Below, in pieces: positions 14,609 to 44,603 of a stretch of 44,603 bases of DNA. The translations under genes and the position numbers were made by a program. Numbering within the stretch: the first letter of the stretch is position 1; every line of letters begins with the position of its first letter. The stretch comes from Desulfobacterales bacterium (GTDB lineage Bacteria; Desulfobacterota; Desulfobacteria; Desulfobacterales; SpSt-501): positions 1 through 44,603 of the forward strand of contig JAUQXK010000040.1 of assembly GCA_030834695.1 (NCBI GenBank). Direction: 5' to 3'. The notes below the pieces were generated by a model, which was given only the letters and a program-made list of their open reading frames with translations, did not search any database and had not been told where the DNA came from.

Positions 14609-14661
14609 CGGTTTCAATGGAATTGGGAACATATGAAACGTTTTATAGCAGTTGTTGCCGT

Positions 14662-14753: not shown

Positions 14754-14776
14754 GATCATCGCGGGGCGCATTCGCC

Positions 14777-16182: not shown

Positions 16183-16184
16183 GT

Positions 16185-17876
16185 TTGAAGATCGGGCTTT
16201 ATCCGAAGCCGTCCGCCAGAACTATGGAACTGATCAGCCAGCACACCAAACGCATCATGGAGGGCTGCAAGCAGCGCGCGCTCGACGCCGGCCTGCGTTT
16301 TGACAGGGAAACGCTGGAGTACCTGGTGACGAACCGGGACCTCCTGGAGCTCACCCCCAAACTGATGATCCCGACCCTCTACGATTACTGGGTCCACGAC
16401 GTGGAGGTGCTCAAGGAAAGGGGGCGCTACGAGCTTTACCCGAGCAACCCTTACGAGACCGTCATCAACACGCGGCCGGCCATTTCCTATTACAACGACA
16501 ACAATCCGGACTGGATGAACGTGATGATCTTCTATCACGTCCTGGCCCACATCGACTTTTTCCAACACAACCTCTATTTCCGCCATACCTGGGACTACGA
16601 CTTCACCGGCCAGGCCCTCTCGGACAAGCGCATGATCGCCCAACTGCGGTCCGAGAAGGGCCGCTGGGTCGATTATGTCATCGAATTCGCGCGCGGCATC
16701 GACAACCTGGTGGGTTTTCATGCCGAACTGGGCCGCCTGAACCGCACGCCCGCAACGTCCGGTTCGCGCATGCTGGACTATTATTTCGACCATTTCCTGC
16801 AAAGCGTGCGCGCGCTGAGACCCAATAAATACATCAAGGAAATCGAACGCTACAATGCCTGCCTGCGGGAGTCTCCGGAGATGGGGGAGCAGGCTTTCTT
16901 CGCGGAGGTGCTGCGGAAATACCCTGAATTCGATTCGAACTATAAAAAAAGCCTCGACGCGAAACCGGTCGGCCGGCAGGACCTGATGCAGTTTATCCTC
17001 ACCCAGTCCGAGTTCTTGAACAAGGAGCGCAATCGCTGGATGAAACCGGTCGTCGAAGTCGTGCGCAAGACCTCGCTTTTTTTTCAGCCTCAGATCCGCA
17101 CCAAGATCATGAACGAAGGTTGGGCCAGCTACTGGCACGAGCGGCTCTTTTTGCAGGACGACCGGATACGCGGCCATGAGGTCGATTTCGCGCGCACGCA
17201 TGCCGGGGTCACCGCCATGCCGCGGGTCGGCCTGAATCCCTATGCACTGGGGATGCGGCTGTTTCAATACATTGCGGATCTGGGCGACGCGGGCCGGTAC
17301 GCCATGGATTTCCGCAAGCTGACCGATTCCCGGCAGCGCGAACATTATGACCGGCATACCGGCGGCGGCCGGGAGCTCCTGTTCAAGGTCCGCGAAAACC
17401 TGAACGACTTTCTATTCATCAATGCGTTCGTCGATCAGGACTTCGTCACCCGTTTTCGCCTGTTTGTCGCCGGCCGGCGGCTGAACCAGGCCAAAGGGGT
17501 CTGGGAGATTTACGTCAAAAGCCGCTCGGCCGAAAGCTATCGCGCCATGCTCCGGAACGGCCTCTATCATCCGCCCTGCATCGAGGTGGACCGGTCCCGG
17601 GCCGGCAACGGCGCGCTCTATCTCGTTCACCGCTTCGAGGGCAAACCGCTGGTGCGGGAATTCATCGCCAATACCCTGTTGGGCATCGAATACCTCTGGG
17701 GCAAGCCCGTGCAGCTCGAAACCAGTGAGTTCGTGCGCGGCGAACCGACGCCGGGCCCGGCGGCGCTTCCGGGCATGCAGATGTCTCTCGGCGAGGAGCG
17801 CGAGCAGCGGGAAATGCAATGGCAGCGGGTGCTCTATACCATGCAGGACCGCAAACTCACCCGCGAACTTCTCTGA
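16185..17876 (+). CDS. spoVR: SpoVR / YcgB family protein
   Basis: This 563-residue cytoplasmic protein is of the SpoVR family, named for a Bacillus spore-cortex gene but widespread in non-sporulating bacteria together with prkA and yeaH. Recognisable stretches are LISQHTKRIMEGCKQRA, YYNDNNPDWMNVMIFYHVLAH, ARGIDNLVGFH, IMNEGWASYWHE and YALGMRLFQYI. The histidines in FYHVLAHIDFFQHN and the NEGWASYWHE motif recall a metal site. The start is either TTG 16185, with GGGAGG about 11 bases upstream in a hairpin loop, or ATG 16224 without a ribosome-binding site; I prefer TTG. It lies 22 bases after yeaH and 5 bases before the next gene. Molecular function is not known. Confidence 0.92.
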   Translation: MKIGLYPKPSARTMELISQHTKRIMEGCKQRALDAGLRFDRETLEYLVTNRDLLELTPKLMIPTLYDYWVHDVEVLKERGRYELYPSNPYETVINTRPAISYYNDNNPDWMNVMIFYHVLAHIDFFQHNLYFRHTWDYDFTGQALSDKRMIAQLRSEKGRWVDYVIEFARGIDNLVGFHAELGRLNRTPATSGSRMLDYYFDHFLQSVRALRPNKYIKEIERYNACLRESPEMGEQAFFAEVLRKYPEFDSNYKKSLDAKPVGRQDLMQFILTQSEFLNKERNRWMKPVVEVVRKTSLFFQPQIRTKIMNEGWASYWHERLFLQDDRIRGHEVDFARTHAGVTAMPRVGLNPYALGMRLFQYIADLGDAGRYAMDFRKLTDSRQREHYDRHTGGGRELLFKVRENLNDFLFINAFVDQDFVTRFRLFVAGRRLNQAKGVWEIYVKSRSAESYRAMLRNGLYHPPCIEVDRSRAGNGALYLVHRFEGKPLVREFIANTLLGIEYLWGKPVQLETSEFVRGEPTPGPAALPGMQMSLGEEREQREMQWQRVLYTMQDRKLTRELL

Positions 17877-17881
17877 CAACC

Positions 17882-26261: not shown

Positions 26262-26315
26262 CGTGGGCGAGAACCGTTCAAGCGTCCGAGGAATATCCCT
26301 GATCCATTTATCAGG

Positions 26316-26610
26316 AATACATCTGACCTTTCGCGAGAGTCTGCGCGACATCCAAGCCTGTCTGCGGGCAGCCCCCTCCAGGCTCTATCATGCGGGCATT
26401 CGCGGCAAGGTATCCCGAAACACCCTGGCGCATGCGAATCAAGTCCGCGGCTGGCGCATCTATGCCGACTTCGCCCAGATACTGATTGCCAAGGCCAGAG
26501 CGCTTTATGTCAACGACGCCTTCGGAGTCGAGCTGGATTACGGGGTCTATGCACTGGCGGCTATCGAAAAGAAAACATTGAAACTGGAGCAAAGCCTTTG
26601 CACAATTTAA
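26316..26610 (+). pseudogene. Remnant of an IS4-family transposase
   Basis: The frame encodes LTFRESLRDIQACLRAAPSR followed by LYHAGIRGKVSRNTLAHAN and GWRIYADFAQILI. This matches the N-terminal third of IS4-type transposases (DUF4372 to DDE_Tnp_1 junction). Homology stops soon after VYALAA, where a full protein continues into the catalytic core, and none of the DDE domain is present. Neither the transposase start nor terminal inverted repeats are visible. It is therefore a truncated, non-functional relic that marks past insertion-sequence activity next to the amidase gene. Confidence 0.8.
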
Positions 26611-29725: not shown

Positions 29726-31810
29726 ATGATAGATCAAGCGCAACTCGACCAGCTTTGCATCAATACCATTCGCACGCTGTCCATCGACGCCATTCAGAAG
29801 GCGCAATCCGGTCATCCCGGCACCCCGATGGACGCCGCACCAACGATCTACTGCCTCTGGCAGCGCTTTCTGCGCTACGATCCGGATGCCCCCAACTGGC
29901 CGAACCGCGACCGCTTCGTGCTCTCGGTCGGCCACGCCTCGGCGCTACTCTACAGTCTGCTTTATCTTTGCGGGATAAAGGCGATGAACTCGACTGACGA
30001 GCAGCCCGGTCGCCTCGCAGTGACCCTCGACGATATCAAAGGCTTTCGCCAAGCCGGCAGCCGTTGTACGGGCCACCCGGAATACGGCTGGACCTCGGGT
30101 GTGGAGACGACCACGGGGCCGCTCGGACAAGGGGTGGCGACGAGCGTCGGGATGGCGATCGCGCAACGCTGGCTGGCGGCCACCTACAACCGCCCTGGCT
30201 ACGATCTGTTCGACCATAACGTGTATGCCCTGTGCGGCGATGGCGACATGATGGAGGGGGTCAGCAGTGAAGCGGCCTCCCTGGCAGGTCACCTCAAGCT
30301 TTCCAATCTCTGCTGGATCTACGACGATAACAACATCACCATCGAGGGTTCGACCAACCTTACCTTTACAGAGGATGTGGCGGCCCGTTTTCTTGGCTAC
30401 GGCTGGAATGTCACTCACGTCAGCGATGCCAACGATCTGGAGATGCTGATCCGTGGTTACCAGATCTTTCACAACACGCCTGATCGTCCCACCCTGATCA
30501 TCGTTAAAAGTCACATCGGCTATGGCGCTCCTCACAAGCAGGACACCCGGGAGGCCCACGGCGAGCCGCTTGGCTCCGAAGAGGTGCGGCTGGCGAAGCA
30601 GTTCTACGGCTGGGACCCTGACGCTCAGTTCTATGTGCCTGACGGCGTTCTGGAGCATTTCAGAGAGCAGCTTGGCCGTCGCGGCGCAACCGTTCGCTCA
30701 GCCTGGGAGAATTTGTTTGCGGCTTACCGCAAGCAGTATCCGGATCTCGCCGATCAGATCGATTGCATGCAGCGCCGTGACTTACCCGAAGGCTGGGACA
30801 GCGCGCTACCGACCTTCCCGGCAGATGAGAAGGGCATGGCTACGCGCGACTCGTCAGGCAAGGTGCTAAACGCCATCGCCGAGAAGGTGCCATGGCTGCT
30901 GGGCGGTGCGGCGGACCTCGCGCCGTCGACCAAAACTCATTTGAATTTCGAGTTTGCCGGCGAGTTCCAGGCACCAGGCCAGGAGAGCAATTACCGCGGA
31001 CGCAATTTCCACTTCGGCATTCGCGAGCATGGAATGTGCGCTATCGCCAATGGGCTGAGTCTGTCGAAGCTGCGACCGTATGCCTCGAGTTTCCTGATTT
31101 TCACCGACTACTGCCGCGGCGCGCTGCGGCTCAGCGCGATGATGGATCTCCCGGTTATCTACATCTGGACGCACGACTCGATCAGCATGGGCGAGGACGG
31201 GCCCACCCACCAGCCCATCGAACAACTCGCGTCTTTCCGCGCGATGCCTGGCATGATTGTGTTGCGCCCGGCTGACGCCAACGAGGTGGTCGAGGCCTGG
31301 CGGGTGATCATGCGGGTCAAGGATCGTCCTGTCAGCCTGGTGCTGACGCGGCAGGCGCTGGTGACCCTGGACCGCACCACGTACGCACCCGCAAGCGGCG
31401 TCTCGCGCGGCGCTTATGTCCTTGCCGATGCCCCAGACAACCGACCGGATGTTCTGCTGCTGGCGACCGGCAGCGAAGTCTCGCTTTGCATTGCGGCGTA
31501 TGAGCAACTCAAGTCGGAAGGGATCAAAGCGCGTGTGATCAGCATGCCGTCCTGGGAGCTGTTCGAGAGTCAGGGCCGGGAATACCGCGACCGCGTTCTG
31601 CCGCCGGGGATAACCGCACGCGTTGCGGTTGAAGAGGCATCCACCTTCGGTTGGGAACGCTATACCGGCCTCGATGGAACTATTCTTGGCCTGCATACCT
31701 TTGGGTTGTCTGCGCCAATGAAGGTCGTCGCGCAGCACTTCGGGTTCGATCCCACTCATGTGATCGCCGCCGCAAGGGAACAAATGGCGCGTCACGGTGC
31801 AAAGCAGTGA
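29726..31810 (+). CDS. tkt: Transketolase
   Basis: This 694-residue thiamine-diphosphate enzyme of the non-oxidative pentose phosphate pathway moves two-carbon units between sugar phosphates. The N-terminal domain has SIDAIQKAQSGHPGTPMDAA and the ThDP/metal site GDGDMMEGVSSEAASLAGH near residue 170. The pyrimidine domain carries WTHDSISMGEDGPTHQPIEQ near 480. The last domain has ATGSEVSLCIAAYEQL and VAVEEASTFGWERYTG. Length is normal for bacterial TktA. GGAG lies about 10 bases before the ATG. It heads the plus-strand island with gnd and zwf downstream, separated from gnd by a 212-base spacer that contains a pgm relic. Confidence 0.95.
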   Translation: MIDQAQLDQLCINTIRTLSIDAIQKAQSGHPGTPMDAAPTIYCLWQRFLRYDPDAPNWPNRDRFVLSVGHASALLYSLLYLCGIKAMNSTDEQPGRLAVTLDDIKGFRQAGSRCTGHPEYGWTSGVETTTGPLGQGVATSVGMAIAQRWLAATYNRPGYDLFDHNVYALCGDGDMMEGVSSEAASLAGHLKLSNLCWIYDDNNITIEGSTNLTFTEDVAARFLGYGWNVTHVSDANDLEMLIRGYQIFHNTPDRPTLIIVKSHIGYGAPHKQDTREAHGEPLGSEEVRLAKQFYGWDPDAQFYVPDGVLEHFREQLGRRGATVRSAWENLFAAYRKQYPDLADQIDCMQRRDLPEGWDSALPTFPADEKGMATRDSSGKVLNAIAEKVPWLLGGAADLAPSTKTHLNFEFAGEFQAPGQESNYRGRNFHFGIREHGMCAIANGLSLSKLRPYASSFLIFTDYCRGALRLSAMMDLPVIYIWTHDSISMGEDGPTHQPIEQLASFRAMPGMIVLRPADANEVVEAWRVIMRVKDRPVSLVLTRQALVTLDRTTYAPASGVSRGAYVLADAPDNRPDVLLLATGSEVSLCIAAYEQLKSEGIKARVISMPSWELFESQGREYRDRVLPPGITARVAVEEASTFGWERYTGLDGTILGLHTFGLSAPMKVVAQHFGFDPTHVIAAAREQMARHGAKQ

Positions 31811-31870
31811 ACCTGGTGGTACTGGACCAAGCCGTGGAGGCGCAGAATGAGAAGCACAAAAGAAACGGCA

Positions 31871-31966
31871 ATAAAAATAAATCCTCTGGCGGGAAAACCC
31901 GCCGAACCATCCTGCTGGCCAACGCACCAAAACTTGTCACTGCTTACTACACGGATGTCCCAGAGT
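31871..31966 (+). pseudogene. Frameshifted 5' fragment of a phosphoglucomutase gene
   Basis: This stretch aligns with the first 90-odd bases of the intact pgm gene at 40150. AGKPAEPS continues, after loss of one base near 31910, in another frame as [18 protein letters not shown], compared with [20 protein letters not shown] and YTEVPE in the intact copy. The match stops at about 31966. It is a relic of a second pgm that once followed transketolase. Divergence from the intact copy shows it is not a fresh duplication. Confidence 0.85.
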
Positions 31967-32022
31967 ATACGCTGCGGCCACAATTATATAGAGCCGCACC
32001 CGGCTAAGAAGGGAGATTTAAG

Positions 32023-33045
32023 ATGCAGCTTGGCATGATTGGATTAGGGCGTATGGGATCCAATATGGTGCGGCGCTTGGTCAAGGGTGGTCACGAATGC
32101 GTGGTCTATGACGTAAGCGCGAAAGCGGTTGAGACACTCATGGTCCAAGGCGCTGTCGGGGCGGATGCCCTCGGAGATTTGGTTTCGCAGCTGTCCAAAC
32201 CGCGTGCGATCTGGTTAATGGTACCGGCCGCCGTGGTTGATCAAGAGCTATCGGAGTTAGTTCCGCTGCTCGAATCGGGAGACATCGTTATTGATGGTGG
32301 TAACTCCTATTACCGCGACGATATTCGGCGCGGCACCGAGTTGAAACCGCGGGGAATTCATTACGTGGATGTGGGGACGAGCGGTGGCCTTGGCGGGCTC
32401 GAGCGGGGCTACTGCCTGATGATCGGTGGCGAAAGAGAGATCGTCCGGCACCTGGCTCCGATCTTTGCCACCCTCGCCCCCGGCATTGACGCGGCGCCAC
32501 GCACGCCCGGCCGGCAGAAACGCGATGGTACGGCCGAACAGGGCTTCCTGCACTGCGGGCCGCAAGGAGCCGGCCACTTCGTCAAGATGGTCCACAACGG
32601 CATCGAGTATGGCCTCATGGGGGCGTATGCCGAGGGACTGAACATCCTGCGCAACGCCGACGCCGGAAAGCGGCCACGCGCTGCGGATGCCGAGACGACG
32701 CCGATGCGGAACCCGGAGTATTACCAGTATGAACTGGACCTGCCCGAGATCGCGGAGGTCTGGCGCCGGGGCAGCGTGATCGGCTCGTGGTTGTTAGACC
32801 TCACCGCCATCGCGCTCCTCAATGACCCCGACTTGAAAAACTACGTGGGCCGCGTGTCGGATTCTGGCGAGGGGCGGTGGACGATCGCCGCCGCGGTCGA
32901 CGAGGGTGTGCCGGTGTCGGTGATCGGCGCGGCGCTCTTCGGGCGCTTTGAGTCTCGGGGCGACGCCGGCTACGCCGATCGGCTCCTCTCCGCCATGAGA
33001 AAGCAGTTTGGCGGGCATGACGAGAAGGAAAAGGGAGGAGGCTGA
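32023..33045 (+). CDS. gnd: 6-phosphogluconate dehydrogenase, decarboxylating (short GndA type)
   Basis: This 340-residue enzyme of the oxidative pentose phosphate pathway converts 6-phosphogluconate to ribulose-5-phosphate and CO2. The N-terminal Rossmann motif is [27 protein letters not shown], the signature [19 protein letters not shown], and the catalytic Lys/Asn region [20 protein letters not shown] near 185-205 follow. The length matches the short form found in many bacteria, not the 470-residue form of E. coli. AAGGGAG precedes the ATG. Zwf starts one base after the stop, so the two oxidative enzymes are made together. The last 90 bases of this gene have a near-copy at 38558. Confidence 0.94.
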
Positions 33046-33046
33046 T

Positions 33047-34459
33047 ATGGGCAAGGCCAACGGCAGAGCGGCCCGGTCCGACGCGCTGGTGCTCTTCGGT
33101 GTGACGGGCGATCTCGCCCACAAGATGATCTTCCCGGCGCTCTATGCGATGGCCAAACGAGGCGCATTGGGGGTTCCGATTATCGGCGTCGCCTCCTCAA
33201 AATGGAGTCTGGCGCATCTGGGACAGCGCGTGATGGACAGCATAAAGCGATCGGGCGGATTCGATGACCAGCGCGTTCTCAAGCATCTTCTCTCCCTGCT
33301 CCGGTACGTGGCGGGTGACTACAATGACCGGGGCACATTCACGGCGATAAAAAAAGCGCTGGGTAGTGCTCGGTGCCCGGCGCATTATCTTGCCATCCCG
33401 CCCTCGCTCTTCGCGACGGTCATCCAAGGGCTCGGCGCCGCTGGTCTGGCCCAGAATGCCCGCGTCATCGTCGAAAAGCCGTTTGGACGCGACCTGGCCT
33501 CCGCGCGGGAGCTCAACCGCATCGCCCAGTCGGTGTTCCCGGACGATTCGATCTTTCGCATCGACCATTTCCTCGGGAAGGAGGCGATTATGAATATTCT
33601 TTATTTTCGCTTCGCCAATTCTTTCCTGGAACCGATCTGGAACCGCAACTGCGTGGCCAGCGTCCAGATCACGCTGTCCGAGGATTTCGGCGTAGAGGGT
33701 CGCGGCACATTTTACGAAACCGCCGGTTGTCTGCGCGATGTAATCCAGAACCATCTCTTCCAGATCGTCGCGCTGCTCGCGATGGAACCGCCGGCCCATA
33801 GAGGCTATGGAGCCGTACATACTGAGAAAGCCAAGGTCTTCCAAGCCATGCGCCCTCTAAAACCAAACGACCTGGTGCGCGGCCAGTACGCCGGCTACCG
33901 AAAGGAGTCGAGCGTGGCGAAGCGCTCCGACGTCGAGACTTTTTGTGCGCTGAGGCTTTTCATCGATTCGTGGCGCTGGGAGGGGGTGCCGTGGTACCTG
34001 CGCTCCGGCAAGTTTCTGACTGAAACGGCGGCCGAGGTCCTGGTGGAGCTGAAGCCGCCGCCACAAAGGCTGTTCGCCGACTCAGCGCCGGCGACCGGGC
34101 GGACTAACTATTTGCGCTTTCGGCTCTCCCCCAGCTCCGCCGTCGCCCTCGCCGCTCGCGTCAAACGTGCAGGGAAGGAGTTCATCGGCGACCAGCGAGA
34201 GCTCTACCTGGTTGAAGAGCAACCGGGAGAGGAAGCGCCTTACGAGCGGCTTTTAGCAGATGCCATGGTTGGCGACGGAGCGCTTTTCACCCGTGAGGAT
34301 GCGGTTGAGGCCGCCTGGGCGGTGGTCGACCCAGTCCTCAAGACCCACCGCCGGGCCCGCACCTACAAGCGCGGCAGTTGGGGGCCGAAAGAGGCTGATG
34401 CGCTCATCGCAGCAGACGGCTTATGGCACAACCCCACACCGGAGCGGGCAAGAACATGA
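33047..34459 (+). CDS. zwf: Glucose-6-phosphate 1-dehydrogenase
   Basis: This 470-residue enzyme makes the first step of the oxidative pentose phosphate pathway, glucose-6-phosphate to 6-phosphogluconolactone with NADP or NAD. The N-terminal cofactor motif is [17 protein letters not shown]. The substrate motif [11 protein letters not shown] and the active-site [19 protein letters not shown] near 180 are intact. [21 protein letters not shown] and [16 protein letters not shown] follow. The frame opens earlier inside gnd, but ATG 33047 with GGGAGGAGG upstream is clearly the start. No 6-phosphogluconolactonase gene is seen in the window, so that step is either encoded elsewhere or spontaneous. 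The stop overlaps the next start as ATGA. Confidence 0.95.
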
Positions 34460-37400
34460 CATCGCCGACGGTAAAAGGAAATCAGAATATGATGAGCAGA
34501 GCCGATAACCAAGAACCGAGGGTGCGCGTTGTCGACTGCGCTAACACCGCGACCCCGGAGGTTCAATTACTGTCGAACGGTAAATACCACGTCATGGTCA
34601 CGAGCGCAGGCGGCGGCTATAGTCGCTGGCAAGACCTCGCACTCACACGCTGGCGCGAAGACGCTACCTGCGACAACTGGGGCGCCTTCTGTTACATCCG
34701 CGACCTTGCGAGCGGGAACGTCTGGTCAACCGCATATCAGCCGACGCTCAAGCGAGCGGACAGCTGCGAAGCGGTTTTCTCGGAAGGTCGGGCGACGCTC
34801 CGCCGTCGTGATCACGATATCGAGACGCAGACCCAAATCGCCGTTTCGCCGGAATATGACGTCGAGCTGCGCCGAGTCCACATCAGCAACTGTTCTGCCA
34901 GACGCAGGGTGGTCGATGTAACGAGTTACGCGGAAATCGTGCTCGCACTGCCTGCCACGGACGCGGCGCACCCGGCGTTCAGCAAACTGTTTGTCGAAAC
35001 CGAGATTCTCCGCGAGCGCCAGGCGATCCTGTGCACGCGCCGCGCGCGAGCCCCCGACGAGCCGACACCATGGATGTTTCACCTGCTGGGCTCGCATAAG
35101 CCGGCACGGGAGGAAGTCTCTTATGAGACGGACCGCCTGCGCTTCATAGGTCGCGGCCGCACCACGGCTGATCCGCAGGCGCTCTACGACAATGCGGCCT
35201 TGTCCGGGAGTGCAGGTCCCGTGCTCGATCCGGTGGCCGCGATCCGCTGTTGCATCACGATCGAGCCGGGTGAGACCGTAACCGTCGATCTGATCAGCGG
35301 CATCAGCGAGACACGCGAGGCCTGCATGGCACTGGTCGATAAATACCAGGATCGACAGCTTGCCGATCGCGTTCTCGCTGCGGCTCCGACTCATGACCAG
35401 GCGATCCTGACCCGGCTCCAAGCGAATGGGGCGGATGCGCAGCTCTATGCACGCCTTGCGGGTTCTGTCATCTACACCAACGCGTCGCTGCGCACCGACC
35501 CGAGCATTCTCGGCAAGAACCGCCAAGGCCAGTCCGGTCTATGGAGGTTCGCCATCTCCGGCGATTTGCCGATCGTGCTGCTGCGAATTGCGAATTCGGC
35601 GAATATCGAGCTGGTGCGCCAACTCCTGCAAGCCCACGCTTATTGGCGCCTGCAGGGGCTGGCAGTCGACCTGGTGATTCTCTGCGAGGATAGCGAAGGC
35701 CGCCCGTCCCCTCTGCACGAGCAGATAGCGAAGCTTATAGCCGCAGGCGGCGACGCCGACCGGGTCGACCAACCCGGCGGCATCTTCGTGCACCCAGCCG
35801 ATAAGATCGACGATGCGGACCGCATCCTGCTGCAGACGGTTGCCCGCGTCGTCATCAACGATAGCGGGGGGTCGCTGGCGGAGCAGCTTGATCGGAGTCG
35901 TGCTTCCTTGGCCTCGGTCCTACCACGGCCAAGCGCGCGCAGAAGTAGCAACGGCACCCCGGCACCCGTCGTGTCGACTCATCCCGGCCTGATCTTTTTC
36001 AACGGGCTGGGCGGGTTCACTCCGGATGGACGCGAGTACGTCATCACGAGCACGACAGGGCACATGACGCCAGCACCGTGGGTGAATGTCCTGGCCAACC
36101 CATCGTTTGGAACCCTCGTGTCCGAGAGCGGCAGCGCGACGACCTGGAGCGAAAACGCGCATGAGTTTCGTCTCACGCCGTGGTCGAATGACCCGGTCGG
36201 CGATCCGAACACCGAGGTGTATTACCTCCGTGACGAGGAAAGTGGCCGCTTTTGGTCGACCACCCTGCTGCCAAGTGGCGGCGCGACGCCTTATGTCACG
36301 CGCCACGGCTTCGGCTACAGCATTTTCGAACACAGCGAGCAGGGTATCGATTCGGAGTTATTCGTGTATGTGGCTATCGATGCGTCGGTCAAGTTCGCGG
36401 TGTTGAAGCTGCACAATCGTTCGGGTCGCGCGCGCCGGCTGTCCGTCACCGGCTACCTCGAATGGGTGCTCGGTGACGAGCGCACGAAAACGCACATGTA
36501 TGTGATCACCGAGCTTGATTCCGGCAGTGGCGCGCTGTTCGCACGCAATCCTTACCATACGGACTTTGCAGGGCGCACTGCATTCTTCGATGTCGATGAC
36601 GTTGCGGACCGCAGTTTTTGTGGTGATCGTGCCGAGTTCCTCGGGCGCAACGGCACGCTGCGCAATCCGGCCGCAATGTCTCGGTTTCAACTTTCCGGCA
36701 CGGTGGGTGCCGCGCTCGATCCGTGTGCCGCGATCCGAGTTCCATTCGAGTTGGCCGATGGGCAAAAGCGCGAGATCGTCTTCCGGCTCGGTGCCGGAGG
36801 CAACGTCGAGGAGGCCCGTGATTTGGTACGACACTGGCGAGGATCAATAGCTGCGCACGACGCGCTCGTCGCGGTGCAGCAATACTGGGGGCACACCCTG
36901 GAGGCCGTGCAGGTGGAAACGCCCGACCTGGCGCTCGATGTGCTCGCCAACGGATGGCTGGTGTACCAGATTCTCGCGTGCCGGGTGTGGGGGCGCAACG
37001 CGTTTTACCAGTCGAGTGGTGCGTTCGGGTTCCGCGATCAGCTACAGGACGCGATGGCGCTGATCCATACCGAGCCGAGCCTCGTACGTGAGCACCTTTT
37101 GAGCTGTGCGTCGCGGCAGTTCCCCGAAGGCGATGTCCAGCATTGGTGGCATCCGCCGTCGGGACGAGGTGTGCGGACGCATTGTTCGGATGATTACCTG
37201 TGGTTGCCGATAGCGACATGCCGCTACGTGCTGGCTACCGGCGACACCGACGTGCTCGACGAACCGGTCCATTTTCTCGAAGGCCGTGCGCTGAAGGATG
37301 GTGAGGCGTCGTGCTACGATCTGCCTACGCAGTCTGCAGAAGTGGCTAATGTATACGAGCACTGCGTGCGCGCCATCAATAGAGGCCTGCGCTTTGGCCA

Positions 37401-38400
37401 ACACGGCATGCCATTGATGGGCTCGGGTGATTGGAACGACGGCATGAACCTCGTCGGCGCCGGTGGCAAGGGCGAAAGCGTCTGGCTCGGCTTTTTCCTG
37501 TGCGCGGTGCTGGCACAGTTCGGGGAGCTGGCGCGGCTGCGCGGCGACCTGTCGTTCGCCCAGCGTTGCCGGAGCGATGCCGTTCGGCTACGCCAGAATA
37601 TCGAGCAGGGTGGCTGGGATGGTGCCTGGTACCGGCGAGCGTACTTCGACGATGGCTCGCCGCTGGGCTCCGCGGAAAACTCCGAATGCCGGATCGATTC
37701 GATTGCGCAGAGCTGGTCGATCCTTTCCGGCTCGGGCGAGGCGCCGCACGCTCGCATGGCCATGGAAGCGGTGGACAGAATACTTGTCCGCCGGGAAAGT
37801 GCGTTGGTCCAATTGCTGGATCCGCCGTTCGACCACTCCAAACCCGATCCCGGCTACATCAAAGGGTACTTGAAGGGCGTGCGCGAGAATGGTGGCCAGT
37901 ACACCCATGCCGCAGTGTGGGCTGCGATGGCGTTCGCGGCAATGGGCGACGCCGAGCGCGCGTTCGAGCTGTTTAACATGATCAATCCGGTCAATCACGC
38001 GAACTCGACGGATTCGATCGCAGTCTACAAGACGGAGCCCTATGTCCTCGCGTCCGACGTTTACGCCTTCCCACCGCATCGCGGCCGCGGTGGCTGGACG
38101 TGGTACACGGGTTCGGCCGGCTGGATGTACCGGCTCATCCTTGAATCACTCCTGGGCGTGAAACTCGACGTGGATAAGCTGCATTTTGAGCCGTGTCTAC
38201 CTGCGGACTGGACTACGTTCAAGCTGCACTACCGGTATCGGGAGACGATCTATCACATCACGGTCTCCCAAATCTGCACCGCAGACGGCAAGACGAGGGT
38301 AACGCTGGATGGCGTCGAGCGACACGACCAGGCCGTTCCTCTGGTTGACGACGGCCAGGAGCACGTGGTCGAGGTGAACATACATCGTGTACAAAGTTGA
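34456..38400 (+). CDS. GH94 family protein equal to the C-terminal half of cyclic beta-1,2-glucan synthase; probable beta-oligoglucan phosphorylase
   Basis: This 1314-residue soluble protein has no signal peptide. It has two beta-sandwich modules of the GH94/GT36 type, at about 20-300 ([19 protein letters not shown]) and 500-770 ([19 protein letters not shown]). An (alpha/alpha)6 barrel at about 840-1200 carries [23 protein letters not shown] near 989 with the likely general-acid Asp, and [11 protein letters not shown]. In cyclic glucan synthases (NdvB/ChvB) this part follows a membrane glycosyltransferase, which is absent here. Stand-alone GH94 enzymes phosphorolyse oligoglucans, and 1,2-beta-oligoglucan phosphorylase is the best-fitting activity. 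ATG 34456 overlaps the zwf stop (ATGA); ATG 34489 with AAAAGGAAA is an alternative. Confidence 0.88.
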
Positions 38401-38557
38401 TGAGAATTCGGCCGTTCCGGCGGAGAGGATGTTTCGCGGATTTTCCGGCCTGCATCCAGGACCGCCTACTGGTCACCACAGTTCAACGGCTGGCAGCCGC
38501 GATACGGACAGTGATGGCCGAGTGTCGAACTCAAATTCCGTACCGCGCGGAGCTCTG

Positions 38558-38690
38558 CGGGCGCTTTGAGTCTCGGGGCGACACCGGCTACGCCGATCGG
38601 CGGCTCCTCTGCGCCATGCGAAAGCAGTTTGGCGGGCATGACGAGAAGCAGGTTGAATCTGGCACCAGTCAGCTGCGTAAGGTGACGTGA
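38558..38690 (+). pseudogene. 3' fragment of a second gnd gene
   Basis: Bases 38558-38649 are almost the same as the end of gnd at 32940-33028. [20 protein letters not shown] followed by [10 protein letters not shown] compares with [19 protein letters not shown] then [10 protein letters not shown]. They differ by a few substitutions and one 3-base insertion. The open frame continues to TGA 38688-38690, which overlaps the next gene's ATG as TGATG. The rest of this gnd copy is missing. The preceding bases, 38401-38557, are open in the same frame but not recognisable. Confidence 0.88.
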
Positions 38691-40006
38691 TGGATCATAA
38701 GGATGGTGACACGAGACTACTGGAGGTTCTCCAACGCGAGGCGTTCGAATACTTCCTGCATGAGACCAACCCTGCCAATGGATTGGTGAGGGACAAGACT
38801 TGCGAGGGCTGGCCCGCGAGCATCGCCGCCGTCGGGCTGGCGCTGACGGCGTATCCCGTCGGAGTCGAGCGCGCTTTTCTCACGCGCGAGGAAGCCGTTA
38901 AGAGAACGCTCACGACGCTGCGGTTCTTCGCGCACAGCCCACAAGGACCGGAGCCCAATGCGACGGGTTACAAGGGCTTCTACTATCACTTTCTCGACAT
39001 GGAGACCGGCGAGCGCGTGTGGAGGTGCGAGCTGTCGACTGTGGACACGGCGCTGCTCCTCGCCGGAGCGCTGACGGCTGCCGCGTACTTTGATCGGCAG
39101 ACGACGGACGAACGCGACATCCGATCTCTCACCGAAGCCCTTTACGTGCAGGCCGACTGGCAGTGGGCGCAGAACGGCGCCGCCACGGTCACCCATGGGT
39201 GGAAGCCGGAGAGTGGTTTCCTGCCCTATCGATGGCAAGGCTACGATGAGGCGCTGATTCTTTATCTGCTCGGCCTCGGTTCGCCTACGCATCCGCTGCC
39301 CGCCGAGAGCTACACCGCGTGGGTTTCGACGTACGAGTGGAAGCGCATCTACGATTCCGAGCTGCTCTATGCCGGACCGCTCTTCACGCACCAACTCTCA
39401 CATGTATGGATCGATTTTCGCGGTATCCAGGACGAATTCATGCGTGGCCGCGGCATCGACTACTTCGAAAACACTCGTCGCGCCACCTACGTGCAACAAC
39501 AGTACGCGATGCGCAATCCGCAGCAGTTTAAGAATTACAGCGAGCACAGTTGGGGAATCACGGCCAGTGGCGGCCCTGGTGAAATGACGTGTCGGATCGA
39601 TGGCATCGAACGACGGTTCTTTGACTATCTGGCGCGCGGCGTCCCCTACGGCCCAGACGACGGCACGCTTGCCCCGTGGGCGGTGGTCGCTTCGCTGCCC
39701 TTCGCACCGGAGATCGTGATGCCGACCATCGGCTATTTCCAACGGCTCCGTCTGCGAGAGACCCATCCCTATGGGCTCAAGGCCAGCTTCAATCCGACTT
39801 TCCCGGATAAGTCGGGAAACGAGTACGGCTGGGTGTCTCCATGGCATTACGGAATCAATCTGGGGCCGATGATCGCGATGATCGAGAACTACCGTTCAGG
39901 ATTGGTCTGGGACTTGACGCGGCAGTGCCGTCCCATTGTCACAGGTCTGCGTTGTGCCGGATTCGCCAACGGCTGGTTATCCGGTCGACAGATGACAGGA
40001 CCATAA
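38690..40006 (+). CDS. GH144-type endo-beta-1,2-glucanase / glucoamylase-domain protein
   Basis: This 438-residue protein consists of one glucoamylase-like (PF10091) alpha/alpha barrel. Marker stretches are LQREAFEYFLHETNPANGLV at the start, TGYKGFYYHFLDMETGERVW, ELSTVDTALLLAGALTA, GYDEALILYLLGLGSPTHP, FTHQLSHVWIDFRGIQD, and NYSEHSWGITASGGP with candidate acidic catalytic residues. Close relatives are the GH144 endo-beta-1,2-glucanases, and the same fold forms the middle part of cyclic beta-1,2-glucan synthase. There is no signal peptide, so any substrate would be oligomeric and inside the cell, or export uses another route. ATG 38690 overlaps the stop of the gnd relic. With the GH94 gene upstream it suggests beta-1,2-glucan breakdown. 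Confidence 0.85.
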   Translation: MDHKDGDTRLLEVLQREAFEYFLHETNPANGLVRDKTCEGWPASIAAVGLALTAYPVGVERAFLTREEAVKRTLTTLRFFAHSPQGPEPNATGYKGFYYHFLDMETGERVWRCELSTVDTALLLAGALTAAAYFDRQTTDERDIRSLTEALYVQADWQWAQNGAATVTHGWKPESGFLPYRWQGYDEALILYLLGLGSPTHPLPAESYTAWVSTYEWKRIYDSELLYAGPLFTHQLSHVWIDFRGIQDEFMRGRGIDYFENTRRATYVQQQYAMRNPQQFKNYSEHSWGITASGGPGEMTCRIDGIERRFFDYLARGVPYGPDDGTLAPWAVVASLPFAPEIVMPTIGYFQRLRLRETHPYGLKASFNPTFPDKSGNEYGWVSPWHYGINLGPMIAMIENYRSGLVWDLTRQCRPIVTGLRCAGFANGWLSGRQMTGP

Positions 40007-40008
40007 AG

Positions 40009-40110
40009 AAAGCGTCTGCAGCCACCAGCCTGTTCCTGGATATCGGTGGCGTCTTGCTGACCGAAGATTAGGACCGTGACGCTCGCAAAGCTGTATACGG
40101 ATCATTCTAA
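40009..40110 (+). pseudogene. 5' fragment of a HAD-hydrolase gene with an in-frame stop
   Basis: The frame reads SLFLDIGGVLLTED, stop (TAG 40069-40071), then DRDARKAVYGSF. It is homologous to TLFLDIGGVLLTNGWDHHAR at the start of the intact HAD gene at 43090; the stop stands where that gene has Trp. Homology fades after about 40100 and another stop follows. No start codon is present. It lies between the glucanase gene and pgm and is the remains of a second HAD copy. Confidence 0.82.
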
Positions 40111-40149
40111 TACGGTGGCATACCCGCTGCCGTTATTGAGGAGCTTTCT

Positions 40150-41829
40150 ATGAAGGTAAGTCCACTTGCGGGTAAACCCGCCGGACCATCGATGCTGGTC
40201 AACGTCCCCAAACTTGTCACCGCCTACTACACGGAGGTCCCAGAGCCGTCAGTGCCCGAACAAAGGGTCGCATTCGGCACCTCGGGGCATCGTGGTTCCG
40301 CGTTCGACAAGAGCTTCAACGAATGGCACGTCCTTGCCATCAGTCAGGCCATTTGCCGGTACCGCAAGGAGCGGGGCATCGATGGCCCGCTGTTTCTGGG
40401 CATCGACACGCACGCACTTTCCGTACCGGCTCTTGCCAGCGCGCTCGAAGTGCTGGCGGCCAACGGCGTGGAGGTCATGATTGCCGAGAACGACGAATAC
40501 ACTCCCACGCCTGCGGTTTCTCACGCGATACTCACTTACAACCGCGGCCGCGATAAAGGAATGGCCGACGGCATTGTCATCACGCCTTCACACAATCCGC
40601 CACATGACGGCGGCTTCAAATACAATCCCCCAAACGGAGGGCCGGCGGATGCCGGCGTTACCGGATGGATCGGGGCGAAGGCCAATGAGTTTCTCGAAAG
40701 CAGTCTCCAGGGTGTGAAAAGAATCCCGTTCGAGCAGGCTTTGCGCGCCGCCACGACGCATCGACACGATTATCTCAACGCTTACGTGAGCGATCTTGGC
40801 AGTGTGCTCGATATGGAGGCGATTCACGGCGCGAGCATTCGAATGGGCGTAGATCCCCTCGGTGGCGCCGGGGTCCATTATTGGGCCCGGATTGCCGAGC
40901 GCTACAGCCTGAACCTTGCCGTCGTCAACGATGCTGTCGATCCGACATTCCGTTTCATGACGGTGGATTGGGACGGGCAGATCCGTATGGACCCATCCTC
41001 GGCCTATGCGATGCAGGGCTTGATAGGGATGAAGGACCGCTTTGATCTTTCCTTCGCCTGTGACACCGACCATGACCGGCACGGAATTGTAACCCGAAGT
41101 GCAGGGTTGCTGCCGCCCAATCACTACCTTTCCGTCGCTATCTTCTATCTTTTCCAACACCGACCGAAGTGGAGCAAGGCAGCGGCCGTCGGCAAGACGG
41201 TAGTAAGCAGCCAGATGATCGATCACGTCACGGCGAAGCTTGGTAGGAGGCTCTACGAGGTGCCCGTCGGCTTCAAGTGGTTTGTGGATGGCTTGCTCGA
41301 CGAGTCGTTGGGTTTTGGCGGGGAAGAGAGTGCGGGTGCGTCTTTCGTCCGTATGGATGGCAGCGTCTGGACGACGGACAAAGATGGCATCGTCCCGGCT
41401 TTGCTGTCGGCGGAGATCATAGCCCGGATGGGCCGGGATCCCGGTGAAATATACCGTGAGCTTACGCGCGAGTTCGGTGAGCCGCTATACGACCGTGTTG
41501 AGGCGCAAGCCACTCCGGATCAAAAGGAACTGTTAGCGAAACTCTCACCCCAGCAGGTTAAGCTCACTGATCTGGCGGGCGAAAAAATCCAGACCATCCT
41601 CACCCATGCGCCGGGCAACAGTGCACCCATTGGCGGCGTGAAGGTAATTGCGAAAAACGGATGGTTTGCGGCGCGCCCGTCCGGGACGGAAGACATCTAC
41701 AAGATTTATGCGGAGAGCTTCCGGGGAGCAGATCATCTGCGCCACCTTCTGGAGGAAGCCCAGGCGATTGTCAGTGATGCTTTGGCGACGCCGCCGGTGC
41801 CGGAGCGGGGCAAAGGTACCGCATCGTAG
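40150..41829 (+). CDS. pgm: Alpha-D-glucose phosphate-specific phosphoglucomutase
   Basis: This 559-residue cytoplasmic enzyme interconverts glucose-1-phosphate and glucose-6-phosphate. It has [12 protein letters not shown] at the start and the phosphoserine loop [17 protein letters not shown] near 147. The magnesium loop is CDTDHDRHG near 304, the sugar-binding loop is GEESAG near 391, and the phosphate-binding loop is [15 protein letters not shown] near 508. Length matches E. coli Pgm (about 546). GAGGAG lies six bases before ATG 40150. Its job here fits exactly between a phosphorylase that releases glucose-1-phosphate and zwf, which consumes glucose-6-phosphate. A damaged 5' piece of a second copy lies at 31871. 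Confidence 0.96.
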
Positions 41830-41945
41830 GTACTTCATCAGCAGACAGCAAGCGATACCAGGGAAGAGGGACCTAACGAGTAACGAGGAAAACCCTAACT
41901 GATGTATTCGAAGATTCGGTCCCGAACCAATTCGGAGGAGAAACC

Positions 41946-42122
41946 ATGAGCAAACAAACACGTGTCAGCCACCCAATCTACAACCTTCTGCCTACGGTAA
42001 TCGAGGGATTCGATTCACTGGCGGAGCTGGCCCTGGATATGCGCTGGTCGTGGAATCATGCTGGAGGAGAAATAATGATGAATAGGCGTCCATTACCAAA
42101 ACATAAAAGCGGGGTGGGCTGA
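41946..42122 (+). pseudogene. 5' fragment of an alpha-glucan (glycogen) phosphorylase gene
   Basis: This 58-residue frame has a perfect ribosome-binding site (GGAGGAG) and starts HPIYNLLPTVIEGFDSLAEL then ALDMRWSWNHA. This is the conserved N-terminus of GlgP-type alpha-glucan phosphorylases. After NHAGGE the homology ends and an unrelated tail (IMMNRRPLPKHKSGVG) leads to TGA 42120-42122. The remaining roughly 600-800 residues are gone. Translation of the stub may still occur and feed ribosomes to the next start two bases later. It indicates that the ancestral island also handled alpha-glucans. Confidence 0.85.
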
Positions 42123-42124
42123 CA

Positions 42125-43090
42125 ATGATCATGGTTCGACCAAAGGTTCTCTCCCATTGGGTTCCGTGGTTCTTTGGGCTGGGTCTTTTGGTCGCCGTGG
42201 TCATGTTCGCCACACACCACAGCCAGGAGATGGCCTTCGCCCAGCTCTTGCTCCACGCTTGGCCTGCTTGGCTGATCGTCGCCCTCTTGCTCCAGATGGG
42301 AACCTACGTGACGGACGCCCGGATCTGGCAGCGAGTCCTTTGTCGCGCGAATATTTCAAAGCCGATCCGCTCCTATGTCGGTTTGGGGTTGGCAAAGCTC
42401 TTCATGGACCAGGCCCTTCCTATCGCTGGCCTGAGCGGCACGTTAATCGTCATCCAAGCACTGGACCGCCGCGGAGTGCCACGCGGCGCAAGCATGACCG
42501 CGGTCGTCATCGACCTCGTGAGCTACTACGCCGCCTACACTCTGGCTATAGCCATCGCTCTTGTCATTGTCTGGGTACTCGGAGACCTCACCCCATTGAT
42601 AGCATTGCCAGCGTGCATCTTCGCACCCCTGGCAGCAGCCGTTCCCATTGCCCTCTTGTGGGTGAGCCGTGGTCGGACCTTGCCCGGTTGGCTCGAACGG
42701 TTACCCCTCATCAAGCCAGCAATTCGAGCGCTTGGTGAGGCGACGGCCACTATTTCTCATGATGTCTGGCTCATCACCCGGTGTACGGGCCTCCAGTTCG
42801 CGATCTTCACGCTCGATGCGGGGACACTCTGGATCATGCTGTGGGCCCTCGGCCTCGTGGTCAATTCAGCGCCGGTCTTTGCAAGCTTTATGCTCTCCAC
42901 GCTATTGCGGACGCTTGGAGTGATTCCTGGAGGCCTTGGGGTATTCGAATCCGTCTCCGTGGCCACCCTCAAGCTCATCGGAGTGCCGGTCGCCGCCGGT
43001 CTCGCGGCCACACTCCTCTTTCGCGTCTTCACCTTCTGGCTACCCATGGCGCCTGGGCTGATCCTCGCGCGGCGTGAGACGAGGGCCTGA
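42125..43090 (+). CDS. Flippase-like membrane protein (UPF0104 / LPG-synthase transmembrane family)
   Basis: This 321-residue inner-membrane protein has about seven or eight hydrophobic segments, such as WLIVALLLQMGTYVTDA and AAYTLAIAIALVIVWVLGDL. The motif PGGLGVFESVSVATLKLIG near residue 285 is diagnostic of the lysylphosphatidylglycerol-synthase transmembrane/UPF0104 family. These proteins resemble flippases for lipid-linked compounds; the actual cargo is unknown. ATG 42125 follows GGGGTGG and comes two bases after the glgP stub stop; ATG 42131 is a close alternative. The stop overlaps the HAD start (TGATG). Its reason for travelling with sugar-phosphate enzymes is not evident. Confidence 0.85.
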   Translation: MIMVRPKVLSHWVPWFFGLGLLVAVVMFATHHSQEMAFAQLLLHAWPAWLIVALLLQMGTYVTDARIWQRVLCRANISKPIRSYVGLGLAKLFMDQALPIAGLSGTLIVIQALDRRGVPRGASMTAVVIDLVSYYAAYTLAIAIALVIVWVLGDLTPLIALPACIFAPLAAAVPIALLWVSRGRTLPGWLERLPLIKPAIRALGEATATISHDVWLITRCTGLQFAIFTLDAGTLWIMLWALGLVVNSAPVFASFMLSTLLRTLGVIPGGLGVFESVSVATLKLIGVPVAAGLAATLLFRVFTFWLPMAPGLILARRETRA

Positions 43091-43773
43091 TGAGGACTGA
43101 ACACCGGAAACTCCGGGGGACCATCATGAAACACCCACCAAAGATTACAACGTTGTTTCTGGATATCGGCGGTGTCCTGCTCACCAATGGGTGGGATCAT
43201 CATGCCCGCAGACGGGCGGCGACGAACTTTAAGCTGGAGTTGGCCGAGATGGAGGATCGGCATCACCTGACCTTCGACACCTACGAGGAGGGGAAACTCA
43301 CGCTGGAAGAATATTTAAATCGGGTGGTCTTCTACAAAAAGCGACCGTTTACTCGCGCTCAGTTTCGGCGCTTCATGTTCGCGCAATCGAAACCATACCC
43401 CGAGATGATCGAGCTGGCCGCTCAGCTCAAGGTCCAGCACGGGCTGAAGATCGCAGTGGTCAGCAACGAAGCCCGAGAGCTGAATTCGCACCGAATTCGG
43501 AAGTTCAACCTTGATGGGTTCGTGGATTTTTTCATTTCCTCCTGCTTCGTCCACTTGCGAAAGCCTGATGCGGACATCTTTCGTATTGCGCTCGATATCG
43601 CGCAGGTTCCGGCCAATCAGGTAGTCTATATCGAAAACACCCCGATGTTCGTCCAGATCGCGGAAGGTTTAGGGATTCCAAGCATTCTTCACACGGATTA
43701 CCGGTCCACGTGCGCGAAACTTGCTTCGTTCGGATTGCAGAATAGCGAAGGAGTCATTCATGAAACCAGCTAA
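43090..43773 (+). CDS. HAD-family hydrolase (phosphoglycolate phosphatase / haloacid dehalogenase-like)
   Basis: This 227-residue hydrolase is probably a sugar-phosphate phosphatase. Motif I is LFLDIGGVLLTNG. In it the nucleophile Asp is present, but the usual second acidic residue (DxD) is replaced by Gly, as in YihX-like members. Motif II lies in IAVVSNEARELN, motif III in SCFVHLRKPDADIFRIALD, and motif IV in VYIENTPMFVQIAEGLG, where the usual DD is EN. The start is either ATG 43090, overlapping the previous stop (TGATG), or ATG 43126 with GGGGGACC before it. The 3' end overlaps ackA by 14 bases. Loss of acidic residues in motif IV makes full activity uncertain. Confidence 0.83.
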   Translation: MRTEHRKLRGTIMKHPPKITTLFLDIGGVLLTNGWDHHARRRAATNFKLELAEMEDRHHLTFDTYEEGKLTLEEYLNRVVFYKKRPFTRAQFRRFMFAQSKPYPEMIELAAQLKVQHGLKIAVVSNEARELNSHRIRKFNLDGFVDFFISSCFVHLRKPDADIFRIALDIAQVPANQVVYIENTPMFVQIAEGLGIPSILHTDYRSTCAKLASFGLQNSEGVIHETS

Positions 43774-44603
43774 CCCACGTATCCTCACCATCAATGGAGG
43801 CTCGTCGAGCATCAAGTTCGCTCTGTTCGAGGCCGGCGACTCGCTCCAACGGATTATGGAAGGCGGGATTGATCGAATTGGACTGCCGGAGCCCACCTTC
43901 CGGGTGAAAGGCTTGAACCAGGCGGACAACTTTTCGCGGTTCGTGACGGCGCCGGATCACACGGTGGCCGTGGGTTTTCTGATGGATTGGATCGAGGAAC
44001 GCAGTGGGGGGGATGCATTGACCGCGGTGGGGCATCGCATGGTGCATGGCGGGCCAAAGTATAAAAAACCGCAGCGAATCACTACGGAAATGATTGAGGA
44101 GCTGCACCGGCTCAGTCCATTCGATCCTGAGCACCTGCCGGAGGAGATCCTGTTGACTGAGGCGTTTCATCGCCGATTTCCTGACCTGCCCCAAGTTGCA
44201 TGTTTCGACACGGCTTTTCACCATGACCTGCCGTGCGTGGCGCGGCTGTTGCCGATCCCGCGCCGCTACGAAACGCAGGGCGTGCGGCGGTATGGGTTTC
44301 ATGGGTTGTCGTATGCGTTTCTAATGCGAGAGATGGCCCGCCTATCCGGAACAGAAGCGGCACAAGGCCGTGTCATCCTCGCCCACCTCGGCAATGGCGC
44401 GAGCCTGGCGGCGGTACGTGACGGCAAACCCGTGGACACAAGCATGAGTTTCACCCCTACAGCCGGGTTGCCGATGAGCACCCGATCAGGTGATCTCGAT
44501 CCTGGACTGCTTTGGTATTTTGTGCGCACCGAAGGCTTCGATGCAAAACAATTCAATGAGATGGTCAATTTCCAGTCCGGACTGCTCGGCGTGTCGGAGA
44601 CCA
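43760..44603 (+). CDS. ackA: Acetate kinase (3' end beyond the window)
   Basis: The first 281 residues of acetate kinase, which makes ATP and acetate from acetyl phosphate, are present. Seen are the N-terminal LTINGGSSSIKFALFEAG, VGHRMVHGG, the catalytic-site stretch ACFDTAFHHDLP, YGFHGLSYAFL, LAHLGNGASLAAV and TPTAGLPMSTRSGDLDPG. GAAGGAG lies 5 bases before ATG 43760, within the end of the HAD gene. The gene is cut by the window edge; about 110 residues are missing. In comparable islands acetate kinase accompanies phosphoketolase, which makes acetyl phosphate from pentose phosphates; no phosphoketolase is in this window, but one could follow downstream. Confidence 0.95.
   Translation, partial: MKPANPRILTINGGSSSIKFALFEAGDSLQRIMEGGIDRIGLPEPTFRVKGLNQADNFSRFVTAPDHTVAVGFLMDWIEERSGGDALTAVGHRMVHGGPKYKKPQRITTEMIEELHRLSPFDPEHLPEEILLTEAFHRRFPDLPQVACFDTAFHHDLPCVARLLPIPRRYETQGVRRYGFHGLSYAFLMREMARLSGTEAAQGRVILAHLGNGASLAAVRDGKPVDTSMSFTPTAGLPMSTRSGDLDPGLLWYFVRTEGFDAKQFNEMVNFQSGLLGVSET

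Follow-up and report, generated by a model that had tools for sequence, protein, structure and literature searches.

We analyzed a 44,603-nucleotide contig of a Desulfobacterales bacterium (JAUQXK010000040.1 of assembly GCA_030834695.1; this whole stretch is hereafter called the window) and found, by means of Pfam and NCBIfam scans, that tkt, gnd, zwf, a GH94 gene, a PF10091 (GH144) gene, pgm, a flippase-like gene, a HAD phosphatase gene, and an ackA gene cut by the contig end form a single-strand (+) run at positions 29726 to 44603 (Table 1). We favor, with moderate confidence, the reading that this run is a catabolic island, which would carry beta-1,2-glucan through glucose-1-phosphate and pentose phosphates to NAD(P)H and ATP. 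An earlier note on this DNA had placed the glucanase, GH94, pgm, zwf, gnd, tkt, and ackA genes together on one strand, several of them with overlapping starts and stops. The scans confirmed every one of these genes in that range (tkt, gnd, zwf, and pgm all above the NCBIfam cut-offs), and overlapping or nearly abutting junctions are borne out at gnd/zwf (stop at 33045, ATG at 33047), zwf/GH94 (stop at 34459, ATG at 34456), flippase/HAD (stop and ATG both at 43090), and HAD/ackA (stop at 43773, ATG at 43760). More specifically, the listed zwf open reading frame (ORF) opens at a TTG (33008), and the ATG at 33047, right behind the gnd stop and with a purine-rich stretch upstream, is the likelier start; the GH94 ORF opens at the ATG at 34423 (1325 amino acids, aa; the open frame as a whole is 1333 aa), with the ATG at 34456, which overlaps the zwf stop, as the alternative. 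The flippase-like and HAD genes, between pgm and ackA, had gone unnamed. The former gave 0 tblastn matches at E 1e-5 across 19 related island stretches, and the HAD of a Variovorax plasmid island, used as query, found nothing in the window at E 1e-12, the window HAD being a different one from that of the related islands.

In the proposed route, a cytosolic GH144 enzyme would cut cyclic or linear beta-1,2-glucan into oligomers, from whose non-reducing ends the free GH94 enzyme would release glucose-1-phosphate by phosphorolysis, with no ATP spent. Phosphoglucomutase would then yield glucose-6-phosphate, the zwf and gnd products would generate NAD(P)H and pentose phosphate, transketolase, probably together with a phosphoketolase, would lead to acetyl phosphate, and AckA would convert the latter to ATP, with acetate as product. 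In this scheme we infer the enzyme activities, their beta-1,2 specificity, the cytosolic location, co-transcription, the direction of flux, the origin of the glucan in the cell itself, and the junction of ackA with the phosphoketolase gene (xfp).

The GH94 protein is central to this reading. In a PDB search, its residues 28-1284 aligned with residues 1522-2787 of the ChvB chain (Agrobacterium cyclic glucan synthase, Cgs) at 1014 bits, and the 1,2-beta-oligoglucan phosphorylase LpSOGP (5h3z) reached 34.2 bits. Both supersandwich domains and the Rossmann-fold-like (RFL) insert are present in the order GP1-RFL-GP2-GP3, as in synthases of the Cgs type, and the catalytic Asp lies in the motif GDWNDGM: D1006 (counted from the ATG at 34423) corresponds to D2528 of Cgs, which is given as the catalytic acid in PMC10901819 and PMC11842490 (these and all papers cited below are represented by the portions available). 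An identity as an SOGP was thus rejected on the scores (34 versus 1014 bits) and the aligned RFL region. The synthase N-terminal part (~1,500-1,600 residues) is absent from the protein, and GT84 and GH189 queries found nothing in the window at E 1e-12. By this alignment, the window GH94 is the C-terminal half of a cyclic glucan synthase, placed in the beta-1,2-glucan lineage, and phosphorolysis of beta-1,2-glucan is its predicted activity. The earlier note had called it a stand-alone GH94 phosphorylase: it is not of the SOGP kind, but it falls in a beta-1,2-glucan lineage and keeps the catalytic Asp. That note had also held that grouping with inactive synthase fragments or with other linkage specificities would speak against its reading, as would a GT84 synthase gene nearby, which would mark the two enzymes as biosynthetic. 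The protein does group with synthases, though with no sign of inactivity, and synthase genes, absent from the window, do occur in several related islands, where whole synthases indicate that a synthase within the cluster does not make the gene set biosynthetic only. The host genome itself also holds two full-length synthases (frames of 2947 and 2925 aa). A GH94 match was obtained in 41 of 291 genomes of the host's class, and the window copy is the only listed frame of ~1300 aa that spans the GH94 region, the shorter frames matching the query incompletely; because the GH94 searches scored no more than two candidates in any one genome, additional free copies may have escaped notice.

The PF10091 protein supports the same substrate. 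Its best solved relative is XCC2207 (XcSGL; 405 bits), a characterized GH144 enzyme whose reported specificity, within the set of substrates tested, is for beta-1,2-glucan, and the residues that define the clan (E239, F286, and Y367 in XcSGL numbering; PMC12102758) are matched by Glu, Phe, and Tyr in the window protein, as mapped by hand at a constant offset of 14 (the crystal chain has Gln at E239). The earlier assignment as a GH144-type glucanase therefore stands, and endo-hydrolysis of beta-1,2-glucan is the predicted activity. The protein has no recognizable signal peptide, as only 2 further codons are open upstream and no hydrophobic leader is encoded. Likewise, 14 relatives at 60-71% identity have 10-58 residues open upstream without a hydrophobic leader, and among six relatives at 35-50% identity, a leader of hydrophobic or lipoprotein-like character is present in five, and the sixth (L162) has an unclassified long extension (both sets judged by eye). 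The leaderless proteins, including three at 51-52% identity, form one group of 18 rows (SH-aLRT 98), and the window GH144 is probably cytosolic. GH144 relatives as a whole are rare: counting the genome of the window itself, 2 of the 291 genomes of its class have one, as do 11 of 369 genomes of the class of a Marinobacter genome that carries a related island (that genome included). As a separate observation, the leaderless type at 51-52% identity adjoins a 'mercuric reductase'-like gene in three hosts (L140 34402-35661, L171 8293-9558, and L255 9065-10330).

Related gene sets recur in other hosts (Table 1), and the grouping is more than chance would give. GH94 similarity alone led to loci L071, L128, L140, and L254; L165, L169, L176, L177, and L174 were reached via GH144, so their GH144 linkage is not an independent observation. 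Among 120 loci gathered by GH94 similarity, 11 lie near any of gnd, zwf, tal, tkt, pgm, xfp, ackA, or pgi, and seven near two or more kinds, namely both loci with a detached GH94 of the same type (2/2) and five of the 118 others (L220 among them); the flanks extend only ~3-8 kb past the gene, so pentose phosphate pathway (PPP) neighbors of full synthases are undercounted. An ancestral adjacency of PPP and synthase genes in the class was considered and rejected, as 20 neighborhoods (two from the window's genome) held no convincing PPP neighbor, the weak exceptions being a partial tkt match of 31.6% at L045 and an amidase match of 29% at L047. In the relatives, xfp and ackA are adjacent, and phosphoketolase and acetate kinase recur with the gene set, which answers the earlier call to look for a phosphoketolase downstream. 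The only xfp match of the host genome is cut by the end of another contig (C78), on which two P-type ATPases follow inward and, further inward, a 159-aa ORF that, judged by eye, begins like a universal stress protein. P-type cation ATPases recur beside islands or xfp (L220 1092-3725 and L252 13824-19356).

Table 1. The island genes of the window, followed by the genes recognized at related loci in other hosts
Feature or locus	Coordinates	Strand	Details
tkt, transketolase	29726..31810	+	694 aa; TIGR00232 790 bits; 76% identity to Variovorax plasmid island tkt
gnd, short NAD-type 6-phosphogluconate dehydrogenase	32023..33045	+	340 aa; TIGR00872 406 bits; NF007161 452 bits; 72% to Variovorax plasmid gnd
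zwf, glucose-6-phosphate dehydrogenase	33047..34459	+	TIGR00871 474 bits; 75% to Variovorax island zwf
GH94, synthase C-terminal half (by alignment)	34456..38400	+	PF06165 twice, PF17167
GH144 endo-beta-1,2-glucanase (predicted)	38690..40006	+	439 aa; PF10091 277 bits; starts GTG 38687 or ATG 38690
pgm, phosphoglucomutase	40150..41829	+	559 aa; TIGR01132 879 bits
LPG_synthase_TM / flippase-like membrane protein	42125..43090	+	321 aa; PF03706 100.6 bits
HAD-family phosphatase	43090..43773	+	227 aa; PF00702/PF13419
ackA, acetate kinase, cut by contig end	43760..44603	+	PF00871 262.5 bits, profile positions 2-277 of 392; ATG 43760 after AAGGAG
L071, Janthinobacterium metagenome-assembled genome (MAG) G292			HAD, tal, pgi, pgm, tkt, free GH94, zwf, xfp, class I aldolase
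L165, second G292 locus			free GH94, gnd, zwf, tal, pgi, tkt, pgm, piece of xfp
L128 + L168, Marinobacter MAG			free GH94, gnd, zwf, HAD, tal, pgi, tkt, pgm, GH144; ends overlap by 145 identical bases
L140, Variovorax plasmid			free GH94, gnd, zwf, GH15, HAD, tal, tkt, pgm, second GH144, 'mercuric reductase', ackA, xfp, universal stress protein, GH144
L254, G764 (contig-cut)			free GH94 near tal and a short zwf-like stretch
L169 + L095, Alcaligenaceae contig			tkt, GH144 (match shows two stops, yet frame open over 434 aa), pgm, tal, HAD, free GH94, pgi, zwf, gnd, full synthase in one stretch
L176			GH144, full synthase, HAD, pgm
L177			pgm, GH144, gnd (31%), zwf (38%), full synthase
L174-L175			ackA, interrupted synthase, GH144, aldolase, zwf, tal, tkt, gnd, pgm, xfp piece; gnd and zwf distant
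L136			full synthase with zwf, HAD, tal, pgi, pgm
L227			full synthase with gnd, zwf, HAD, tal
L220			full synthase with zwf; tkt and pgm as pieces only, 54 and 53 residues
L255, G955	C22:246001-266000		tkt 53%, 'mercuric reductase'-like gene, GH144 52%, free GH94 46% (1327-aa frame), then synthase
Polaromonas plasmid, no GH94			tal, pgm, xfp, ackA, tkt, HAD, gnd, GH144
L149, Criblamydia sequanensis plasmid, no GH94			GH144, ackA, ribose-phosphate pyrophosphokinase, thymidine phosphorylase, glgP, phosphoketolase, P-type ATPase, one run

To place the detached GH94 among the synthases, we built a tree of 77 rows drawn from 126 extracted ones (9 free GH94s, 6 synthases of PPP clusters, and 62 of 89 other synthases; frames cut by contig ends were omitted). 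Six free GH94s, all from PPP islands, group as a single clade (SH-aLRT 96), whose sister is the island synthase L176 (98). The host's synthases group with their own class, and the closest kin of the window GH94 are other free GH94s; a derivation from the host's own synthases was accordingly rejected. Two later trees of 63 rows each omitted long-branched rows and thinned the other synthases from 85. In these, an inner clade of the window GH94, L140, L165, L071, and L254 has a support of 99-100, and seven rows (these five plus L128 of Marinobacter and L169 of Alcaligenaceae) group at 94 on all columns and at 87 on GP2-GP3 only. The five-member clade is firm and the seven-member clade probable, whereas L255 and, likewise, the group of L213-L215 seem to have become detached separately. 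The latter three are a second group of free GH94s at 41-48% identity, with L213 and L214 matches that skip the RFL region, and no PPP, pgm, xfp, or ackA query matched near them.

The sequences of the free GH94s point to retained function. Six of them keep 139-144 of 146 catalytic-domain positions that are near-invariant in 90 synthases (the synthases average 99.5%), and the identity among free GH94s is equal or close to that among synthases in GP2 (0.62 versus 0.62) and GP3 (0.71 versus 0.70) but lower in RFL (0.47 versus 0.64) and GP1 (0.56 versus 0.63). When pairs were matched on GP3 identity, 14 of 15 free-GH94 pairs had an RFL identity lower than that of at least 99.5% of synthase pairs, and for GP1, 12 of 15 ranked in the lowest 5%, with no shift in GP2 (the pairs are not independent). 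The catalytic core is thus conserved about as in the synthases. In Cgs, RFL contacts the N-terminal domain (PMC10901819), and drift of RFL is therefore expected of an active phosphorylase freed from a synthase. Uncut free GH94 frames of 1301-1341 aa are found in six rows from five genomes or plasmids; the one on the Variovorax plasmid (L140 20001-23918, i.e., NZ_LR594691.1 271464-275381) is an uncut frame of 1341 aa that is missing from the PLSDB gene table.

The block seems to have been acquired horizontally, probably from other bacteria. The island zwf shares 75% identity with its Variovorax plasmid counterpart and 39% with the other zwf in the genome, and a zwf tree splits nine related island rows from the host and same-genus genes at 100/100. 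The G400 and G543 islands carry a different zwf, indicating that the clusters do not share all parts by descent. Tetranucleotide correlations of the window's 1-24 kb with two host stretches (C50a and C78a) are 0.92-0.94, compared with 0.81 for the island against the same stretches, 0.79-0.81 for the island against the window's 1-24 kb, and 0.87-0.88 for the island against two further host stretches (C110a and C50b), figures that are biased by shared coding content, as C110a holds part of a synthase. Contamination of the contig was considered in the light of these figures and rejected; a gene at 9.6-11.2 kb has an 86% identical fragment of 83 residues in a same-genus genome, its best long matches (66-67%) being in other families of the order. 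A DUF4372 transposase-type remnant (26263-26610, +) lies between the host-like part and the island, and G+C drops to ~0.50 at 28-30 kb.

Several observations weigh against the catabolic reading. (i) No lactonase, rpe, rpi, tal, or xfp gene was found among the window ORFs scanned, small ORFs lying outside the scan, so the gene chain is not gapless. The earlier statement that the activities connect without gaps was overstated, and what it called a full oxidative branch amounts to zwf, gnd, and tkt, without lactonase and pentose epimerase or isomerase in the window (tal occurs in relatives). (ii) No oligosaccharide importer was recognized in the island. (iii) The window contig and the xfp contig do not overlap, and we infer the ackA-xfp junction from the relatives. 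(iv) In six of the 14 neighborhoods of GH144 at 60-71% identity (L150-L153, L167, and L172/L173), the stretch contains none of the PPP, pgm, xfp, and ackA genes; on the L167 contig, xfp is ~18 kb away, and L151 has ribose-phosphate pyrophosphokinase and thymidine phosphorylase genes. (v) Adding long-branched rows, including L255, to the GH94 trees pulls the Marinobacter and Alcaligenaceae rows away and breaks the joint clade, so a single origin of the free GH94s is likely but not proven. (vi) GP1 has drifted alongside RFL, which the contact argument does not explain. (vii) The feeder enzymes vary between islands: the Polaromonas set has GH144 without GH94, the Criblamydia set has glgP without GH94, and the Variovorax set has an additional GH15, so beta-1,2-glucan may not be the sole feedstock.

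This last point leads to the view that the core is a pgm-PPP-phosphoketolase-AckA module for stress or low oxygen with interchangeable feeders, to which beta-1,2-glucan would be one minor input. It would fit the feeder sets of Criblamydia (GH144 with glgP, xfp, and ackA), Variovorax (GH15 with GH94), and Polaromonas, as well as the P-type ATPases, universal stress protein, phospholipase D, or metal genes near several islands. Yet no glucan enzymes other than the two for beta-1,2-glucan, whose genes lie amid those of the PPP, were seen in the window run, and we consider this view unlikely. Less probable still is a role for the free GH94 as a trans-acting trimmer, which would adjust the chain length of glucan made by the host's two full synthases and so serve synthesis. 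The two synthases and a ChvA-like exporter match just under the cut-off are present in the genome, the domain is the length-control step within synthases (PMC11842490), and the RFL insert is still there, though drifted. However, RFL, the part that touches the N-terminal domain of Cgs (PMC10901819), has drifted most, the gene sits between zwf and GH144/pgm with relatives that accompany xfp and ackA, and its closest kin are free GH94s rather than the host synthases. That the gene is a truncated, non-functional remnant would suit the loss of ~1,500-1,600 N-terminal residues and the lack of any GT84 trace in the window, but is very improbable given the uncut frames in five genomes or plasmids, the retained catalytic residue, and the conserved core.

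Phosphorylases are reversible, and cytosolic phosphate normally favors phosphorolysis. A reverse flux, in which GH94 would build beta-1,2-glucan from glucose-1-phosphate to store surplus carbon, has in its favor the nearby pgm and the in vitro use of SOGP backwards for glucan synthesis (PMC11842490), but an endo-glucanase and an oxidative branch share the run and the phosphate level would oppose it, which leaves it scarcely credible.

Within the catabolic reading, a further step can be imagined, which we regard as possible but doubtful, namely that beta-1,2-glucan serves as an intracellular carbon and energy reserve. In such a glycogen-like cycle, a full synthase would make the glucan within the cytosol, the leaderless GH144 and detached GH94 would mobilize it, and the traveling module of PPP, phosphoketolase, and acetate kinase would burn it. 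The basis for this idea is the clustering of whole synthases with GH144 and/or PPP and xfp genes (L176, L177, L174-175, L095+L169, L136, L220, and L227). A ChvA-like exporter match near the cut-off was obtained in two of 10 island records (the window genome included), the others reaching at most 306 bits; the host match (C62:28803-30527; 568 bits versus the TIGR01192 cut-off of 585) shares its contig with neither of the synthases. A missing exporter was dropped as evidence for a cytosolic reserve, since 20 of 20 other synthase genomes likewise gave no near-cut-off match (best, 308 bits); these controls were not checked throughout for islands, and one of them, G623, holds GH144 pieces. For the acyclic oligohexoses found in nodules of rhizobia, storage has been suggested as a function (PMC12423599), and no such suggestion for beta-1,2-glucan itself was found in the portions of the literature examined.

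Elsewhere in the window, a 771-aa protein (7097-9412, +) combines a beta-lactamase-type serine hydrolase domain (residues 43-361) with both parts of the exo-beta-N-acetylmuramidase NamZ (419-771). DUF444, SpoVR-like, and PrkA-like genes lie in a row at 14747-20245 (+) as a divergent set of the yeaG/yeaH/spoVR type, with SpoVR and PrkA matches far under the NCBIfam cut-offs, and a 695-aa ORF at 12545-14632 (-) has no Pfam or NCBIfam match, the opposite strand also holding a long ORF.

Beta-1,2-glucans are known as secreted osmolytes and symbiosis or virulence factors. That a free phosphorylase half recurs in transferable clusters, alongside energy genes and a beta-1,2-glucanase that is probably cytosolic, suggests that beta-1,2-glucan metabolism has a catabolic branch, and makes the question of an internal reserve directly testable. 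No description of such an island was found among the open-licence papers that the searches listed (some searches matched more papers than they listed), as judged by titles and abstract openings. In the portions available, phosphorolysis by the synthase is described as merely one step of synthesis (PMC11842490), and gene hits for Sinorhizobium salt tolerance include a phosphoketolase and an NdvB orthologue, with no island there (PMC12855168).

Compared with ChvB/Cgs, the window GH94 shares the domain order, the equivalent of D2528, and an end-to-end alignment, but lacks the N-terminal domain, GT84, the transmembrane helices, and the GH189 cyclase, has diverged in RFL and GP1, and sits in a catabolic-looking run. 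With LiSOGP and LpSOGP it would share the expected reaction, from beta-1,2-gluco-oligomers to glucose-1-phosphate; LpSOGP differs in its very low score to the window protein and in having no RFL subdomain (PMC10901819). The island GH144 resembles XcSGL and CpSGL in its score to XcSGL and in the retained Glu, Phe, and Tyr, and differs in lacking a recognizable signal peptide and in grouping with other leaderless forms. Routes from glycogen phosphorylase through phosphoglucomutase into the PPP, and the bifid-type shunt of phosphoketolase and AckA, are known. By analogy, the island may follow the same course from a phosphorylase through glucose-1-phosphate, pgm, pentose phosphates, and acetyl phosphate to ATP, but it is a probably transferred set that would use beta-1,2-glucan enzymes in place of those for glycogen.

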